Below, in pieces: positions 50,757-61,308 of a stretch of 64,000 nt of DNA. Below the pieces are notes generated by a model. That model was not told the origin of the DNA, searched no databases, and saw only the letters and a program-made list of their open reading frames with translations. Position 1 is the first letter of the stretch. Every line of letters starts with the position of its first letter. Origin of the DNA: Lachnospiraceae bacterium (GTDB lineage Bacteria; Bacillota; Clostridia; Lachnospirales; Lachnospiraceae); contig JAFXFO010000022.1 of the NCBI GenBank assembly GCA_017520425.1, positions 62,001-126,000 on the forward strand. The letters run 5' to 3'. A program made the position numbers and the translations under genes.

Positions 50757-51980
50757 CTAGTTGAATATTACTTTTTTGAAGCTCTTCTTACCGCGCTTTA
50801 CTACCTTACCGTCTCCTGCAAAATCGTCCTTTGTGTAAACGGTCTTCACATCGGTAATCTTCTCACCGTCCACAGTCACACCGCCCTGTTCTACAGCACG
50901 TCTTGCCTCGGAACGGGAAGCACATAAACCTGCGGATGCTACCACACCGATAATATCGATGGTGCCGTCACGGAAATCTTCTTCCTTAAGTTCGTAGGTC
51001 GGCATATTTTCCGCATTACCTGCGCTGAACAGTGCCTTGGAAGCGTCCTTTGCCTTGGTAGCTTCTTCCTCACCATGAACCAACTTGGTCAACTCAAATG
51101 CAAGGATTTCCTTCGCTTCATTTAATTGGCTGCCTTCCCAAGCATCCATCTTCTCAATCTCTTCCAAAGGAAGGAAAGTCAGCATACGAATGCACTTCAG
51201 TACATCAGCATCTGCCACATTTCTCCAGTACTGGAAGAATTCAAAAGGAGTTGTCTTGTTAGGATCAAGCCATACAGCACCCTTCTGGGTCTTACCCATC
51301 TTCTTGCCTTCTGAGTTAAGAAGTAAGGTAATGGTCATAGCATATGCATCCTTGCCTAATTTACGACGAATCAGCTCTGTACCACCCAACATATTGGACC
51401 ACTGGTCGTCACCGCCAAACTGCATATTACAGCCGTAATCCTGGAACAGCTTGTAGAAATCGTAAGACTGCATGATCATGTAGTTAAACTCAAGGAAGCT
51501 TAAGCCTTTCTCCATACGCTGCTTGTAGCATTCTGCAGTAAGCATACGGTTTACTGAGAAATGTGCACCAACTTCACGAAGAACATCCACATAATTCAGG
51601 TCCAAAAGCCAGTCAGCATTGTTTACCAAAAGTGTCTTATCTTCAGAAAAGTCAATAAACTTACTCATCTGCTCTTTAAAGCATGCCACATTGTGTGCAA
51701 TAGTTTCCTTGGTCATCATGGAACGCATATCAGTTCGTCCACTGGGGTCACCAATCATAGCGGTACCGCCACCTATTAAGGCGATGGGTTTATTGCCGGC
51801 CATCTGCAATCTCTTCATCAGGCAAAGTGCCATGAAATGTCCTACATGCAAGCTGTCTGCTGTAGGGTCGAAACCAATGTAGAAGGTAGCCTTACCATTA
51901 TTAATCATTTCTTTGATTTCTTCTTCGTCAGTTAACTGTGCAAGAAGGCCTCTTGCTTTTAATTCATCAAAAATAGTCAT
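50757..51980 (-). CDS. tyrS: Tyrosyl-tRNA synthetase
   Basis: Charges tRNA-Tyr. The 407-residue class I synthetase has the HIGH-like motif [14 protein letters not shown] (about 38-51), the Tyr-binding region, the KMSKS-like segment [11 protein letters not shown] and a C-terminal S4 RNA-binding domain (about 345-407). AAGGAG precedes the ATG. It is controlled by the T-box riboswitch just upstream. spoIVA follows 57 bases further in the same direction. Confidence 0.97.
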
Positions 51981-52300
51981 TGTTTTTTCTCCTTTTCTTA
52001 AAAATAGAAAAGCTCGCCCTTATTCAAAAGGACGAGCTAAAACTCGTGTTACCACCTCTAGTTCCCATGTTGCTCACGCTTCATGGCTTAGCGAGTATCA
52101 AACAATACTCCGGCAAATATCGGTGCCTACCGGTAATCTCTACTGGGTGTCTGTCACACCGTTCAAAATCACTGCTCCGAGATGTACTTCCCATTATCTG
52201 CTTCAGCGCCTCTCACCAACCGGCAACTCTCTGTGGAAACCTTGATAAAGGTACTCTTCTCTTCAACGCATCTATCTATTTTGTTACAACTTATTTGCAT
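51981..52300 (-). promoter_or_regulatory. T-box riboswitch controlling tyrS (tyrosine)
   Basis: The untranslated leader of tyrS has the classic T-box order. Stem I carries the AGAGAGTTGCCGGTTGGTGA element and a specifier region GGAAGTACATC, where TAC (52184-52186) is a tyrosine codon. The antiterminator motif AGAGGTGGTAACACG lies at 52042-52056, followed by a terminator hairpin. Uncharged tRNA-Tyr pairs with the specifier and the T-box bulge to allow tyrS transcription. This region has no protein gene. Confidence 0.92.
52003..52038 (-). terminator. T-box terminator of tyrS
   Basis: On the minus strand AGCTCGTCCTT and AAGGGCGAGCT form an 11-bp stem with G-U pairing, followed by TTTCTATTTTT. 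Confidence 0.85.
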
Positions 52301-53447: not shown

Positions 53448-53541
53448 CTGTGATTTGATTAATTCCTTCTACCTTCACTATGCATTATTCTAATCAAAAT
53501 ACACATACTATCCACGAAAGGATGGTCCCGGAGGGGAATAA

Positions 53542-54582
53542 CTATTTCTTGCGTTTTAACACAATTACAGCCACCACGCCAAGGACAACAACCACACCGC
53601 CCAAGGCAATCCAAGGTATAAGAAAGTTGTTTTCCTCTACAGGCTCAGTAACAACGGGAGTATCTACCACAGGTGCAGGCGTAGAATCTACAGTAGGTTC
53701 AGTCGTTGCTTCTGCCGTAGGTTCGTCTACTACAGGCGCTTCGGTAGAAATCACGGTAGGTACAGGAGTTGCCACTGGCTTTTCTGTAGGTTCGGGAGTA
53801 GGTGCTTCCGTAGGCATTTCTGTAGGTGCTTCCGTAGGTTCGGGCGTTGCTGTAGGCTCAGCCGTGGGTTCTTCCGTAGGAACAGGTGTAGGTTCGGGTA
53901 CATCTGTCACATCCTCAACCTTTTCGATAGGCTTGTCGGCAAAATACTTAGATACACTGAAACCAGTAGTACCATTATACTCCAAACGATACCAACCGTT
54001 AGAGGTCTTACCTGTTACATGTACCTTTTCGTTTTGAGGTACATTACCCACCTTGTTTGTATTGGTACTAGGCTCTACACGAACATTTACGTCTGTGGTT
54101 GCGTAACTTTCCATATCACAGTCCTCAATGGTGTATTGAGGGGTGATAGGGGTATTCGGTTTTCTCAAGTCCTCATGTGCATATGGTGTACACCATTCTT
54201 TATATCCCCAGTCCACCAAACTTTCCTGCGCAAACTGATATATTTCATATGATACAAAATCACTTAATGCACCACAGTCCAATAAACGTTGTTCCGTTTC
54301 CGGAAAAAAAGCAGCAAATACTTCCGCATATTTTTCTTCTAAGTTTCCACTTTGATAAACAGGAATTAAGATCCATTCACAGGCATTTGTTGAAGAAATT
54401 GCCCCATCCAAAACATACGTAACAACTCCTGAAATTCCATAGATATAATAATAGTTCGGTCCATTTGTAGCATTAATATCTGCACGAACTTCTAAATTAA
54501 TTGTAGAAAACATAAATATTGCAATCCAAATTCCTAGCAACTTCTTAAACATCTTATTATGCTTTTTCCTAAAATTTCTCAT
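53542..54582 (-). CDS. Surface protein: signal peptide, SH3 domain, Pro/Thr/Glu-rich stalk, C-terminal membrane anchor
   Basis: Start ATG at 54582 has AAGGAG 9 bases upstream; 346 residues. Signal peptide: basic then hydrophobic (LLGIWIAIFMFSTI). It has an N-terminal region of unknown fold (about 35-160), a bacterial SH3 domain (about 165-220; TTDVNVRVEPS... SNGWYRLEYNG) and a stalk of repeated PTEAP/EPT units (about 230-315). A single C-terminal helix (WIALGGVVVVLGVVAVIVL) is followed by KRKK. The SH3 domain suggests cell wall binding, and the stalk spans the wall. It follows the VWA gene by 64 bases on the same strand. Confidence 0.85.
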   Translation of the reverse strand: MRNFRKKHNKMFKKLLGIWIAIFMFSTINLEVRADINATNGPNYYYIYGISGVVTYVLDGAISSTNACEWILIPVYQSGNLEEKYAEVFAAFFPETEQRLLDCGALSDFVSYEIYQFAQESLVDWGYKEWCTPYAHEDLRKPNTPITPQYTIEDCDMESYATTDVNVRVEPSTNTNKVGNVPQNEKVHVTGKTSNGWYRLEYNGTTGFSVSKYFADKPIEKVEDVTDVPEPTPVPTEEPTAEPTATPEPTEAPTEMPTEAPTPEPTEKPVATPVPTVISTEAPVVDEPTAEATTEPTVDSTPAPVVDTPVVTEPVEENNFLIPWIALGGVVVVLGVVAVIVLKRKK

Positions 54583-54646
54583 AAAATGTATCTCCTTATT
54601 TACAATCAGATTATCCACTATAATCACAAATATTCTACTTTTTCTA

Positions 54647-56817: not shown

Positions 56818-57672
56818 ATGATTCAGTCATATTTCAAAAAAGAACCCACTCTTTCTTTTGAGGTATTCCCTCCCAAGAAGGATGGCGAGTTAGACCAGGC
56901 CTTTCATATCTTAGACGAACTGGCCACTTTAAAGCCTGATTTTATCAGTGTGACCTACGGTGCCGGCGGCAGCAAGTCCAAAAAGACCGTAGAGCTGGCT
57001 TCTTATATTCAGAATACATTAAAAATTCAGGCTTTGGCTCATTTAACCTGCGTAGGTAATACCGCTGCTCAGGTAGAAGCTGTCATTAACGAATTAAAGG
57101 CTAATAACGTAGACCATGTGCTGGCACTTCGCGGAGACCGTCCCAAGGATATGACCGACGAACAGTTTAACAGTCGTGAATTCTTACATGCCAGTGATAT
57201 GATCCATTATTTGAAGGAACGCACGGATTTCCACATTGCAGGTGCCTGCTATCCGGAGAAGCATTTTGAATCCTTCAGCATGGAGTCTGATTTGAATCAC
57301 TTGAAGCTGAAACAGGATGCCGGTGCAGAATTCTTCATTACTCAGCTTTTCTTTGACAATGATTATTTCTACACCTTCCGTGAAAAAGCTGCGAAAAAAG
57401 GGATTAACATCCCTATTTGTACAGGTATCATGCCCATTACCACTGCGAAACAGATCGGAACCACGGTTTCTCTCTCCGGCTCCAGTGTACCCAAGGCCAT
57501 GGCTGATATGATTGCCAAGTATTCCGAATCACCGGAGGAATTATACAAAGCAGGTATCGATTATGCCATCCGTCAGATTATGGACCTGAAGGAAAATGAT
57601 GTGGACGGCATCCATATTTATACGATGAACAAGCCTGCTATCGCTGCTGAAATTGTTAAATCAATTATTTAA
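56818..57672 (+). CDS. metF: 5,10-methylenetetrahydrofolate reductase
   Basis: FAD enzyme supplying methyltetrahydrofolate for methionine synthesis. The 284 residues have the family motifs FEVFPPKKDG (19-28), FISVTYGAGGS (about 41-51), ALRGDRP and the late FFITQLFFDND. In acetogenic relatives the same enzyme works in the Wood-Ljungdahl pathway with an electron-transfer partner; no metV is adjacent here, so a biosynthetic role is assumed. AGGAGG precedes the ATG. Confidence 0.96.
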   Translation: MIQSYFKKEPTLSFEVFPPKKDGELDQAFHILDELATLKPDFISVTYGAGGSKSKKTVELASYIQNTLKIQALAHLTCVGNTAAQVEAVINELKANNVDHVLALRGDRPKDMTDEQFNSREFLHASDMIHYLKERTDFHIAGACYPEKHFESFSMESDLNHLKLKQDAGAEFFITQLFFDNDYFYTFREKAAKKGINIPICTGIMPITTAKQIGTTVSLSGSSVPKAMADMIAKYSESPEELYKAGIDYAIRQIMDLKENDVDGIHIYTMNKPAIAAEIVKSII

Positions 57673-57682
57673 ATATAACAAA

Positions 57683-57712
57683 CAAGCCCCGGACCTATAT
57701 ATCCGGGGCTTG
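57683..57712. terminator. Terminator between metF and the EAL gene
   Basis: CAAGCCCCGGA and TCCGGGGCTTG form an 11-bp stem with an 8-base loop. The T tract is poor on the plus strand but the stem is very stable. It separates convergent genes. Confidence 0.75.
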
Positions 57713-57731
57713 CGCTTTCAATTCTCACTTT

Positions 57732-60128
57732 TTATTCATTAATCTTAATATTTCTCTTAGAATTCATCAGTTCCAATCGGCCGTTCTTACTGCCAATATC
57801 TAAAATATCCTTCGCAAGTATGGTCATAATCATATTTGCATTCTGTATACTTACATTTCCTCGTCCGTTCATATCACCGATACCAACCACCGAGTTTCCT
57901 TCGCAATAGAATATGGTATTTGTATTTTCAACAATACAGTCCAAAGCACCATAGTCCGAACCGACACAAACCATACTTTTACCTCGAATATCACATTCAA
58001 TGGTACCGTCTGAGACTAAAACACTGCCCTCTCCGTTGCTTAACACGCCGATTCCGCAAAGGTTATTGCCGGATTCCGTAATATTCAGACTATAGTTATG
58101 CATAATAACACTGGTACGTCCTCTCATCGCACCGATTCCCACAGCATTGGCGCATGACATTTTTATTTCCAGACTGGAGTTTTTAATATCCATTCTGCTG
58201 TTTCCGTCAAAGCTTCCCACGCCTATAGCATTTCCGCCTGCACATTCTAAATGGATGCCGCTATGCACGATATATATATTGGAATCCGCGGTGTTTTTTC
58301 CACCACCAATACCCACACAGTTTTCTCCGTTAATATCTATCACAAGCTGCGGAAGCTGTTCAATATGGATATTGCCATAAGAACTTTCCTTATCACCGCC
58401 AATAGCAAAGGAATTTTGCATTTCACAATGAATGTATAAGCTACCGCTTCCGGTAACCCAAAGCTCAGATCCTTGAGGTACTCTGATTCCTCGATTATGT
58501 ATCTCATTGATACCTTCTATCTGAATTTTCACATTACTTCCTGCTCCGATATCAATAAGCGGAACTTCCTTTTCTGTAATAATATTAACATTTTTCAAAG
58601 TAATGTTTGACTGAACATTTTCTTTTACTGCGATGCTACAACTAATGGAAGTACCTACAACCCCCTCTATTGTTACATTTTCTTTGTCAATAAAGATAGA
58701 GTTGTAATGCAGCGTAGCAAGCTGCGAAAGATTTACCTTTTCATTCTCCGAAGGTGTATACACTTTAACAATGTATTCTGAACGCATCAGATTCAATGCA
58801 ATGATTTCTTCCTTGTATTTTTCCTCTATCTCATCCGGCAATACTGCATCCGGCTTGGCCAAATAATATCCCTGGATAAAATCCGTGCCTAAGCCTATCA
58901 TTGTCTTTAACTCTTCGTAGGTTTCCACGCCTTCCGCCAGTGCGGAATATCCATTTTCATGAATAAACTCAATAATACCCGTAACAAGTTTCTGTATCTT
59001 TGGCTTATCTTCAATATTCTTAATCAATGCCCTGTCAATCTTTACATAATTGGGGCTGTAACGTATTAGGTTTGAAAGATTAGAAAAACCGGTTCCATAA
59101 TCATCAATTGCCAATGAAATATTAAATCTTTTCAAACGATTCCGGAATTTGGCAAGCTGCTCATCACCCATTTCCGTTTGTTCCGTCATTTCCACTACCA
59201 GTTTGCTCATCAAACTGCCGTATCTGTTCACCAGCTGTTCCCAGTCAGACAGTTTCAACATATGTGCGGGAATGGAATTTATGAACATTTTCCGCTCTTC
59301 AAAGGCATCAATGTGCTGTTCCAGATATTCCATCACATTACTCATGGTGGCTTTCTCGATTTCATAAAGCTTGTCCAGCTTTGTGGCAATATCTATCACC
59401 TCTAAGGGACGCATATTGATAACGGGATCCGTACGCATCAATGCTTCATAGCCGAATATGGTACCATTTTGTGCGTCTATTATAGGTTGAAAATGATAAT
59501 GGAACATATTCTTTTCCACCAATAGCTGGAATACCTCCTGATGCTTCCACAATACGGCACGTGAAGTTCCTGTCGATGTTACATCCTTTTGCAGGCGTTT
59601 CAAAAGCATTTCATTATTACTCAGACGTAAATAGTTTTCAAAGCCACCTTCCCATCCGGGTTCCAATAAAATATAACCGTAGTCCGCCTCAAGAAAATAA
59701 GGTTTGCCGGCTATAATATTATATCCTTCAATCTCCTTTATCAGGCATTGATTCTGTTCTTCCAAAAACGACGCAATATCTTCCCGACTACAATCATATG
59801 CAAATTGAGCAATAACAACCAGTCGTTCGTCCGAAATATGTCCGATGTAAGTACCATTTCCCCAACACTGTTGCAACATCCTCGTAAATACCGAAAGAAT
59901 CTCATCCACGCATTCAATACCGAAATTCTCAAGTATATAAACATATTTTGAAATTTCATAAACTGTTACGGATAAACAACCATTCTTACTGCAAGATAAC
60001 GAAAAATCTTTAAACCATCTGAACACCTGACGCAAAGTCGGCAATCCGGTAACAGAATGAAGCCCTGTCCTTTTCTCTTCCTTATTATCGTCTACCATTA
60101 TCGCTTGCATTTGTATCCCTTTTGCCAT
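57732..60128 (-). CDS. EAL-domain protein with C-terminal GIG-repeat (beta-helix-like) domain
   Basis: Probable cyclic di-GMP phosphodiesterase, 798 residues, no signal peptide or membrane segment. Residues about 20-180 look like a GGDEF-like domain without its signature (SDERL). The EAL domain (about 205-430) keeps the catalytic residues: E228 (EAL), N284, E313, D342-D343 (IDDYGTGF), K364 (KID), E399 (AEGVET) and Q419 (IQGYY). The C-terminal 330 residues contain about eight repeats of about 28 residues, each with a GIG or GVG turn (575, 606, 635, 663, 691, 719, 748, 775), typical of a right-handed beta-helix and possibly carbohydrate binding. GGAGCG precedes the ATG. Confidence 0.85.
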   Translation of the reverse strand: MAKGIQMQAIMVDDNKEEKRTGLHSVTGLPTLRQVFRWFKDFSLSCSKNGCLSVTVYEISKYVYILENFGIECVDEILSVFTRMLQQCWGNGTYIGHISDERLVVIAQFAYDCSREDIASFLEEQNQCLIKEIEGYNIIAGKPYFLEADYGYILLEPGWEGGFENYLRLSNNEMLLKRLQKDVTSTGTSRAVLWKHQEVFQLLVEKNMFHYHFQPIIDAQNGTIFGYEALMRTDPVINMRPLEVIDIATKLDKLYEIEKATMSNVMEYLEQHIDAFEERKMFINSIPAHMLKLSDWEQLVNRYGSLMSKLVVEMTEQTEMGDEQLAKFRNRLKRFNISLAIDDYGTGFSNLSNLIRYSPNYVKIDRALIKNIEDKPKIQKLVTGIIEFIHENGYSALAEGVETYEELKTMIGLGTDFIQGYYLAKPDAVLPDEIEEKYKEEIIALNLMRSEYIVKVYTPSENEKVNLSQLATLHYNSIFIDKENVTIEGVVGTSISCSIAVKENVQSNITLKNVNIITEKEVPLIDIGAGSNVKIQIEGINEIHNRGIRVPQGSELWVTGSGSLYIHCEMQNSFAIGGDKESSYGNIHIEQLPQLVIDINGENCVGIGGGKNTADSNIYIVHSGIHLECAGGNAIGVGSFDGNSRMDIKNSSLEIKMSCANAVGIGAMRGRTSVIMHNYSLNITESGNNLCGIGVLSNGEGSVLVSDGTIECDIRGKSMVCVGSDYGALDCIVENTNTIFYCEGNSVVGIGDMNGRGNVSIQNANMIMTILAKDILDIGSKNGRLELMNSKRNIKINE

Positions 60129-60177
60129 ACGCAGTCACGCTCCAACGCCATGTAAATTAACAGTTATCTATGCATAT

Positions 60178-60206
60178 ATTACATCATTTTTTGCACAATT
60201 TGTCAA
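60178..60206 (-). promoter_or_regulatory. Promoter of the EAL gene
   Basis: Minus-strand TTGACA (60201-60206) and TGTAAT (60178-60183) with a 17-base spacer, 49 bases upstream of the start. Confidence 0.65.
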
Positions 60207-60248
60207 GTATCATACATTGTTTCTGCTTTTATCTGTAAATTTGTGCAT

Positions 60249-60280
60249 CAAAAAATCCTCCGGACGATTCCGGAGGATTT
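60249..60280 (-). terminator. Terminator of gpsA
   Basis: AAATCCTCCGG and CCGGAGGATTT form an 11-bp stem with a 6-base loop; on the minus strand TTTTTTGATG follows. It lies just after gpsA. Confidence 0.9.
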
Positions 60281-60294
60281 ACTGTTATTTTTCA

Positions 60295-61308
60295 TTATTC
60301 TTCTTCCCAAGGGGCGTCAGACACCTCAATCTTTTTATCACGAAGCATCAGGTCTTTCACTGCTTCTGATGCCGGCTTCCCTTCAAAAAGTACCTTATTC
60401 ACCTGCTCAATAATAGGAAGCTGTACATTATACTTCTCAGCTAACTGCATAGCTGCCTTTGCGGAGTAAACACCTTCCACAACCATCTTAACCTCTGCCA
60501 TAGCTTCTTCCATACTCATACCCTGGCCGATTAAGATACCGGCACGACGGTTTCTGGAATGCATGCTGGCACAGGTAACAATCAAATCACCGATACCTGT
60601 CAAGCCTGAGAAGGTCTCATACAAACCACCCATGGCAATACCCAAACGACCTATTTCCGTAATACCGCGGGTGATTAGCGCCGCCTTGGTATTGTCTCCG
60701 TAACCAAGTCCGTCTGCAATACCGGCTGCAAGTGCTACCACATTCTTCAAAGAACCACCCAGCTCAATACCCAAAATATCCGGGCTGATATAAACACGGA
60801 ACACTTCGTTCATAAACAGGCTACGAATATATTCAGCCGTAGATTTCTTCTTCGCACCCACAACAATTGTAGTGGGTACACCGCGGCTTACTTCCTCTGC
60901 ATGTGAAGGTCCGGACAATACAGCTACCTGACACTGAGGAATCTCCTGTTCGATGATTTCCGTCAGAGTCATTACTGTATCCTCTTCGATACCTTTTGCC
61001 ACATTCACAATAATCTGGCCGGGTGCTATCAGATCTTTAATTCTTCTTGCCGTAGCTCTGGTATAGGAACTTGCCACTGCCATAACCAGCATATCCTTAC
61101 CGGTTACCGCTTCTTTTTCGTCCGTGGTAAATTTCATATCATCAGCCAGCTTTACACCGGGAAGCATCTTATGTTCATGCTCCGAACTAAGCATCTCAAT
61201 TTCCTTTTCTAATGCAGACCATACAGTAATCTCATGTCCGTTCTTATGTAAAAGTACCGCTAATGCGATACCCCAGCTACCGCCGCCTAAAACAGCTACC
61301 TTTGCCAT
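60295..61308 (-). CDS. gpsA: Glycerol-3-phosphate dehydrogenase [NAD(P)+]
   Basis: Reduces dihydroxyacetone phosphate to sn-glycerol-3-phosphate for phospholipids. The ATG at 61308 has AGGAGG 7 bases upstream. The 337 residues have the N-terminal nucleotide motif VLGGGSWGIALA (about 5-16), the SGPSHAEEV segment, KNVVALAAGI with the catalytic Lys, and NTKAALITRG. It lies 14 bases after plsY, so product and user of glycerol-3-phosphate are together. Confidence 0.96.
   Translation of the reverse strand: MAKVAVLGGGSWGIALAVLLHKNGHEITVWSALEKEIEMLSSEHEHKMLPGVKLADDMKFTTDEKEAVTGKDMLVMAVASSYTRATARRIKDLIAPGQIIVNVAKGIEEDTVMTLTEIIEQEIPQCQVAVLSGPSHAEEVSRGVPTTIVVGAKKKSTAEYIRSLFMNEVFRVYISPDILGIELGGSLKNVVALAAGIADGLGYGDNTKAALITRGITEIGRLGIAMGGLYETFSGLTGIGDLIVTCASMHSRNRRAGILIGQGMSMEEAMAEVKMVVEGVYSAKAAMQLAEKYNVQLPIIEQVNKVLFEGKPASEAVKDLMLRDKKIEVSDAPWEEE

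Follow-up and report, generated by a model that had tools for sequence, protein, structure and literature searches.

A putative EAL phosphodiesterase with a predicted C-terminal beta-helix in a Lachnospiraceae genome and its relatives in Clostridia

Gene organization and domain composition

We analysed a stretch of 64,000 nucleotides (hereafter the window) from the Lachnospiraceae bacterium assembly GCA_017520425.1 (contig JAFXFO010000022.1, positions 62,001 to 126,000), in which one minus-strand gene joins an EAL domain, typical of cyclic di-GMP (c-di-GMP) phosphodiesterases, to a long repetitive C-terminal domain. The features assigned to this gene are listed below.

57732..60128, minus strand: whole gene, a single open reading frame (ORF) of 798 codons (798 aa) with degenerate GGDEF, EAL and predicted C-terminal beta-helix
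59664..60053, minus strand: degenerate GGDEF domain, residues 26-155 (Pfam PF00990 match; motif position)
59820-59834, minus strand: SDERL in place of the GGDEF motif, residues 99-103
58851..59525, minus strand: EAL phosphodiesterase domain, residues 202-426 (Pfam PF00563, E 2.1e-48; active-site residues present)
58686..58850, minus strand: linker helix and N-terminal cap, residues 427-481 (conservation across 76 sequences; the model shows a helix and the first strands)
57735..58685, minus strand: predicted right-handed parallel beta-helix, residues 482-798 (turns with IG/GIG/GVG at intervals of 27-30 residues)
57682..57713, minus strand: terminator-like hairpin of 13 pairs with a T-rich tail, just downstream of the gene (pattern scan)

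The EAL domain scored 165.2 bits against a curated Pfam cut-off of 31.3, and all eight residues checked, which we take to be the active-site set, are present (E228, N284, E313, D342, D343, K363, E399 and Q419). They are kept in 109 of the 110 aligned members of the family, window protein included, the exception being L058 with T for K363. The GGDEF-like stretch gave 23.2 bits in the protein search, just below the cut-off of 23.8, and 26.4 bits, above the cut-off, in a DNA-level whole-genome search; the GG(D/E)EF motif of active diguanylate cyclases is replaced by SDERL. An earlier sequence-only reading of the window, which had described an intact EAL domain and a GGDEF-like part without its signature, was thus correct on both domains.

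No membrane segment and no hydrophobic signal core were found in the window protein by a hydropathy scan, made with no dedicated signal-peptide predictor, again in line with that reading. The mean hydropathy over 19 residues reached 1.15 at its peak and 0.58 within the first 60 residues. From the EAL domain onward a hydrophobic segment was detected in only one of the 110 members (L033). The EAL-linked C-terminal domains are also rich in cysteine, as would be expected for the reduced cytoplasm; per 376 residues, 76 such domains contain 8.6 Cys, compared with 1.9 in eight modules of secreted proteins and 3.4 in 19 Cthe_2159 domains. The sequence supports a soluble cytoplasmic c-di-GMP phosphodiesterase as the gene product, with hydrolysis predicted. 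The genome holds 20 GGDEF matches (the EAL gene included) and three PilZ matches, therefore a c-di-GMP network exists in this organism.

Known EAL phosphodiesterases such as YahA, DosP and Lmo0131 resemble the window protein in the EAL domain, which exceeds the Pfam cut-off and has its active-site residues, and in the GGDEF-like domain before it, but the window protein adds a beta-helix of more than 300 residues after the EAL domain. We consider this architecture, the predicted fold and the cytoplasmic location nearly certain.

The C-terminal beta-helix domain

Turns with IG, GIG or GVG were found at residues 527, 576, 606, 635, 664, 692, 722, 749 and 778, the intervals between them being 49, 30, 29, 29, 28, 30, 27 and 29 residues. 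Self-similarity of residues 441-798 is maximal at a lag of 28 (z 5.6), a value that none of 1000 shuffled sequences attained at any lag between 15 and 64. The C-terminal part (about residues 463-798) is predicted as a right-handed parallel beta-helix, with a mean predicted local distance difference test (pLDDT) score of 93.9 over 376 residues. Beta-helix entries make up all of the best 50 matches listed in the structure search. The assignment to right-handed parallel beta-helices is based on the repeating coils of this confident model together with the matches to solved beta-helices. The sequence-only reading had counted GIG/GVG repeats of about 28 residues and guessed at such a helix; both the repeat and, as a predicted fold, the helix were borne out.

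Sequence searches gave no name to this domain. Pfam names nothing after residue 426, and a search of NCBIfam at E ≤ 0.1 with the C-terminal parts of the window protein and two relatives returned no family. No solved structure matched the beta-helix part by sequence below E 0.1, and a search of the PDB with the C-terminal profile returned nothing at E ≤ 10.

The domain is 367-421 residues long in 98 full members (median 383). Its ratio of nonsynonymous to synonymous substitution rates (dN/dS) was 0.014-0.23 in all 11 close pairs compared, indicating purifying selection, although dS exceeded 1 in five of the 11 and those ratios are rough; the EAL domain gave 0 to 0.09, with dS saturated in one pair. 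Judged from these ratios, the helix domain is maintained and not decaying.

An extra short cap with a Y(L/I)P-like motif at its end follows the helix in some relatives (L007, L033, L034, L087, L090, L094, L095, L096, L100, L102, L110 and others); it was found by motif in 11 members. A search for this cap over the ORFs of the loci gave 28 rows from 23 loci, all belonging to the EAL plus helix family and none to secreted proteins.

Distribution of the architecture

The EAL plus helix architecture is not unique to the window gene, and 110 members were aligned. The search for it in Lachnospiraceae, which the sequence-only reading had proposed, found it there and also in Ruminococcus and other Clostridia. 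In a relatives set of 61 genomes, at least 13 matches spanned both the EAL domain and the C-terminal part, in at least 11 genomes that carry the genus code of the window, its own genome among them. The C-terminal profile, which contains a few last EAL residues as do the other C-terminal profiles used, matched 20 of 200 genomes of the family at E ≤ 0.001. Matches above 100 bits numbered 21 in 16 of these genomes, and all 21 lie in the reading frame of EAL motifs; one of them is truncated at a contig end. The seven weaker matches are L047, in which a stub follows EAL, the secreted-looking proteins L048 and L056, and L049, L050, L055 and L057. L047 is a natural truncation, with a C-terminal domain of only about 146 residues.

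Among 391 genomes of the class, 15 matched at E ≤ 1e-10; 13 of them hold 15 strong matches, every one with an EAL domain, and the other two (G442 and G587) hold six matches of 41-61 bits without EAL. Three strong matches are shared by the two surveys, which leaves 33 distinct ones, all behind an EAL domain. A survey of 398 genomes of the phylum gave three matching genomes, all found before. At most five candidates per genome were scored in the class survey and at most four in the phylum survey, so EAL-less copies may be missed.

A scan of named genomes matched at least 594 stretches, of which 250 were confirmed and the best 80 kept. The C-terminal domain is present in all of these best 80 of 250 relatives, but the patterns of the scan lie within the EAL domain and thus the scan cannot test for a helix without EAL. 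The EAL regular expression missed seven of the 80 loci, in which the alignment shows the EAL residues. The named members include Ruminococcus flavefaciens, R. albus 8, Acetatifactor sp., many Lachnospiraceae metagenome-assembled genomes (MAGs) and other Clostridia, and the pairing is shared by many gut and rumen bacteria. One protein, on a contig titled Bacteroidales (L113), is the same over the aligned part as that of L037, which carries the window's own family code; this is probably due to a mislabelled or contaminated bin.

While the EAL plus helix core is constant, the N-terminal input domains differ. Pfam found GGDEF in 43, LacI-type Peripla_BP_3 in 22, GNAT in two and NUDIX in one of the 78 named members with a complete N-terminus. 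Counting the window protein, 91 members have a complete N-terminus; the GGDEF motif is intact in six of them, and 17 have at least one membrane-kind hydrophobic stretch before the EAL domain. The GNAT acetyltransferase (L008 and L009) and NUDIX (L093) N-termini are unusual inputs for c-di-GMP enzymes.

Among the papers listed by searches of the open-licence PubMed Central literature, a scope outside which most subscription papers lie, we saw none on an EAL domain joined to a beta-helix. To our knowledge, c-di-GMP signalling in gut and rumen Clostridia has been little studied.

Relationship to secreted beta-helix proteins

The matches without EAL in G442 and G587 (L187-L193) are large proteins with several copies of a beta-helix module. 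They carry the first 160 or so positions of the helix, and four copies are listed in one frame of 2477 residues. The copies scored 22-59 bits, with further fragments lower, and every protein has at least one copy of at least 39 bits. The best secreted matches in the two genomes reached 61.2 and 49.5 bits, versus at most 28.6 bits for reversed ORFs. A signal-like start was seen by eye in L191 and L193 and is absent from L188, a fragment of 220 residues; the other starts lie outside the locus. Pfam Beta_helix_3 (PF18889) was above its cut-off in L188 and L191, as well as in L048, below it in L187, and without a match in L056.

Profile comparison of the family with eight of these secreted modules gave 98.9% (E 2.8e-17) over 154 colinear columns, and 18.2% for the reversed alignment; the eight modules, two weaker copies of 22 and 27 bits included, had been found with the same family profile, so the comparison is not independent. 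With 19 Cthe_2159 domains the values were 86.8% and 5.7%, each comparison having one reversed control. Likeness to the Beta_helix_3 modules consists of the colinear profile match, a GI.VP..S.L...G.G.L stretch and the GIG turns. Secreted proteins of this type carry several modules in large chains, whereas the EAL-linked helix is single, cytoplasmic and richer in cysteine. Cthe_2159 (PF14262, PDB 4peu) is a shorter chain of 250 residues titled polysaccharide lyase-like, in contrast to the window helix fused to EAL; it binds cellulose or uronic acids and calcium. Neither PF18889 nor PF14262 matched the C-terminal part of the window protein in Pfam at E ≤ 10.

By sequence comparison, it is well supported that the EAL-linked helix belongs to the same superfamily as the modules of secreted Beta_helix_3-type proteins of Clostridia, and a link to Cthe_2159 is more weakly indicated. 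With the EAL site, the lack of an export signal and the high cysteine content, this homology agrees with the earlier picture of a presumably cytoplasmic c-di-GMP hydrolase carrying a domain of secreted type. Two secreted proteins with GIGGG repeats, L048 (27.6 bits) and L056 (17.5 bits), were rejected as evidence; weak repeat matches mean little, because reversed ORFs of the family reach 28.6 bits with the plain profile.

The descent of the window gene was also considered. The window's Der protein shares 88% identity with that of Acetatifactor sp., 77-81% with three Lachnospiraceae and 58-59% with five Ruminococcus/Oscillospiraceae genomes; Der of one Lachnospiraceae MAG (L126) gave a partial weak match only. 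By these identities the genome most likely belongs to Lachnospiraceae. In a quick tree, the EAL plus helix protein was placed among Oscillospiraceae rows, in a set of 14 rows with a Shimodaira–Hasegawa-like approximate likelihood ratio test (SH-aLRT) value of 99. Its closest fork is with L059 and L061 (SH-aLRT 88), and the protein of a congener (L002) falls in the same set. This placement, against the Lachnospiraceae-like Der, could reflect transfer between families or old paralogy, MAG labels being not fully reliable.

Possible function of the beta-helix

We tentatively favour, with a probability of about 0.4, that the beta-helix is a docking or oligomerisation rod of the cytoplasmic c-di-GMP phosphodiesterase. 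A signal would reach the degenerate GGDEF domain (in relatives, the LacI-type, GNAT, NUDIX or membrane domain), which would then tune the EAL domain. The rigid rod, coupled to EAL through the linker, would dock or self-associate and so place or oligomerise the enzyme at a cytoplasmic target, and c-di-GMP might then be removed locally, or only once the complex has formed. Coupling of docking or oligomerisation to EAL is favoured because conserved polar or aromatic residues (≥60%) are denser in the linker and cap, with five of 55 positions (E441, N446, K455, Y457 and Y475), than in the helix, with nine of 317 columns (503, 513, 541, 554, 579, 651, 667, 743 and 797). The suggestion of the sequence-only reading that the domain binds a polymer or scaffold is still conjectural.

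Several points weigh against the docking rod. The main ground for its role is that no clear ligand site is seen, and the mean frequency of the top residue is nearly equal in linker and helix (0.446 vs 0.430). In nine helix columns the acidic share is 50% or more, and six of these columns fall within 579-614; columns 503 and 743 reach 86% and 82%, and N541 is 91% conserved. A site for a ligand or metal would be compatible with the acidic columns and N541 as well. The neighbouring genes of the relatives (79 loci) point to no partner for the helix, and the roughness of five of the dN/dS values belongs here as well.

The conserved acidic columns would suit a reading with a ligand, in which the helix acts as a cytoplasmic carbohydrate or polymer sensor. 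Its ligand would be a glycan inside the cell (glycogen, nascent exopolysaccharide or a precursor of the cell wall), bound perhaps together with a metal, and the level of this glycan would be linked to the breakdown of c-di-GMP. We regard such a sensor as doubtful. Aromatic residues are the usual glycan platforms, but in the helix they are conserved at two columns only, 574 (57%) and 584 (61%), with a mean of 0.34 Trp per domain, and since they are hardly conserved the docking rod is preferred to a glycan site. PF14262 was detected at E ≤ 1 in four of 76 C-terminal domains (best 0.0003), the window's not among them, but unrelated families came near (best 0.00072). An enzyme akin to polysaccharide lyases or epimerases is suggested by the pectate-lyase-like fold, with AlgE4, AlgG and RbmB among the structure matches listed, and by some of the acidic columns. 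A shared fold shows no function, however, and Gly, Ile, Leu and Val account for most of the positions with at least 60% identity across 76 members. Polysaccharide lyases of such kind need a base, and no basic column of the helix exceeds 51%, which leaves an enzyme very improbable.

Bactofilins are the precedent for a right-handed beta-helix working in the cytoplasm, as predicted for the window protein (PMC12448750); they are about 110 residues long and are not known to be fused to a signalling enzyme, whereas the window helix is about three times longer and fused to EAL. If it polymerised end to end in the same manner, filaments would carry or gate the phosphodiesterase, and the nearly fixed length of the helix, like its cytoplasmic location, is compatible with this. 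Pfam returned no bactofilin match at E ≤ 10 for the C-terminal part of the window protein; that bactofilins are missing from the best 50 structure matches listed says nothing either way. The N-terminal end of the helix directly follows EAL, probably leaving one free end, and with the threefold difference in length we judge such filaments quite improbable. A passive relic or mere spacer, taken over from some secreted protein, would suit the secreted relatives of the domain and the stub in L047; the low dN/dS in all 11 pairs and the nearly fixed length in 98 full members argue otherwise, and we give this explanation very little weight.

Returning to the docking rod, a wider scenario may be proposed, though it seems unlikely as a whole. 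Gut and rumen Clostridia would have moved a secreted beta-helix of adhesin or carbohydrate type into the cytoplasm as a fixed output module of the phosphodiesterase; self-assembly, or docking along a cytoplasmic polymer, would make c-di-GMP breakdown dependent on assembly, and varied inputs (sugar sensor, acetyltransferase, NUDIX, membrane) would be plugged onto this core. An unnamed domain is retained behind an enzyme across a large family, and as cultured R. flavefaciens and R. albus have it, its role is testable. Should the helix dock or assemble the enzyme, local control of c-di-GMP would gain a structural basis, and a beta-helix would have an unusual intracellular use.

Gene neighbourhood and other features of the window

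The EAL plus helix gene is stand-alone, with the terminator-like hairpin after it. Five terminator-like sites were found by pattern scan in 57600-60400, versus a mean of 1.6 in shuffled sequence. Another hairpin, at 60253-60280, was assigned to the plus strand by the scan; a run of T follows it on the minus strand too, where it would terminate gpsA. In the relatives, the commonest neighbour clusters occur in 19, 16, 11, 11 and 10 of 79 loci (L124 left out), and by eye they look like housekeeping genes kept by descent.

Elsewhere in the window, the minus-strand gene 53542-54627 appears by eye to encode a cell-surface protein, which begins with a hydrophobic, signal-like stretch and has both a stalk rich in Pro, Thr and Glu and a hydrophobic C-terminal segment. 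A plus-strand ORF at 53480-54037 overlaps this gene in antisense. On the minus strand, a T-box leader (RF00230, 111.6 bits) at 52025-52275 lies upstream of the ORF 50757-51980.
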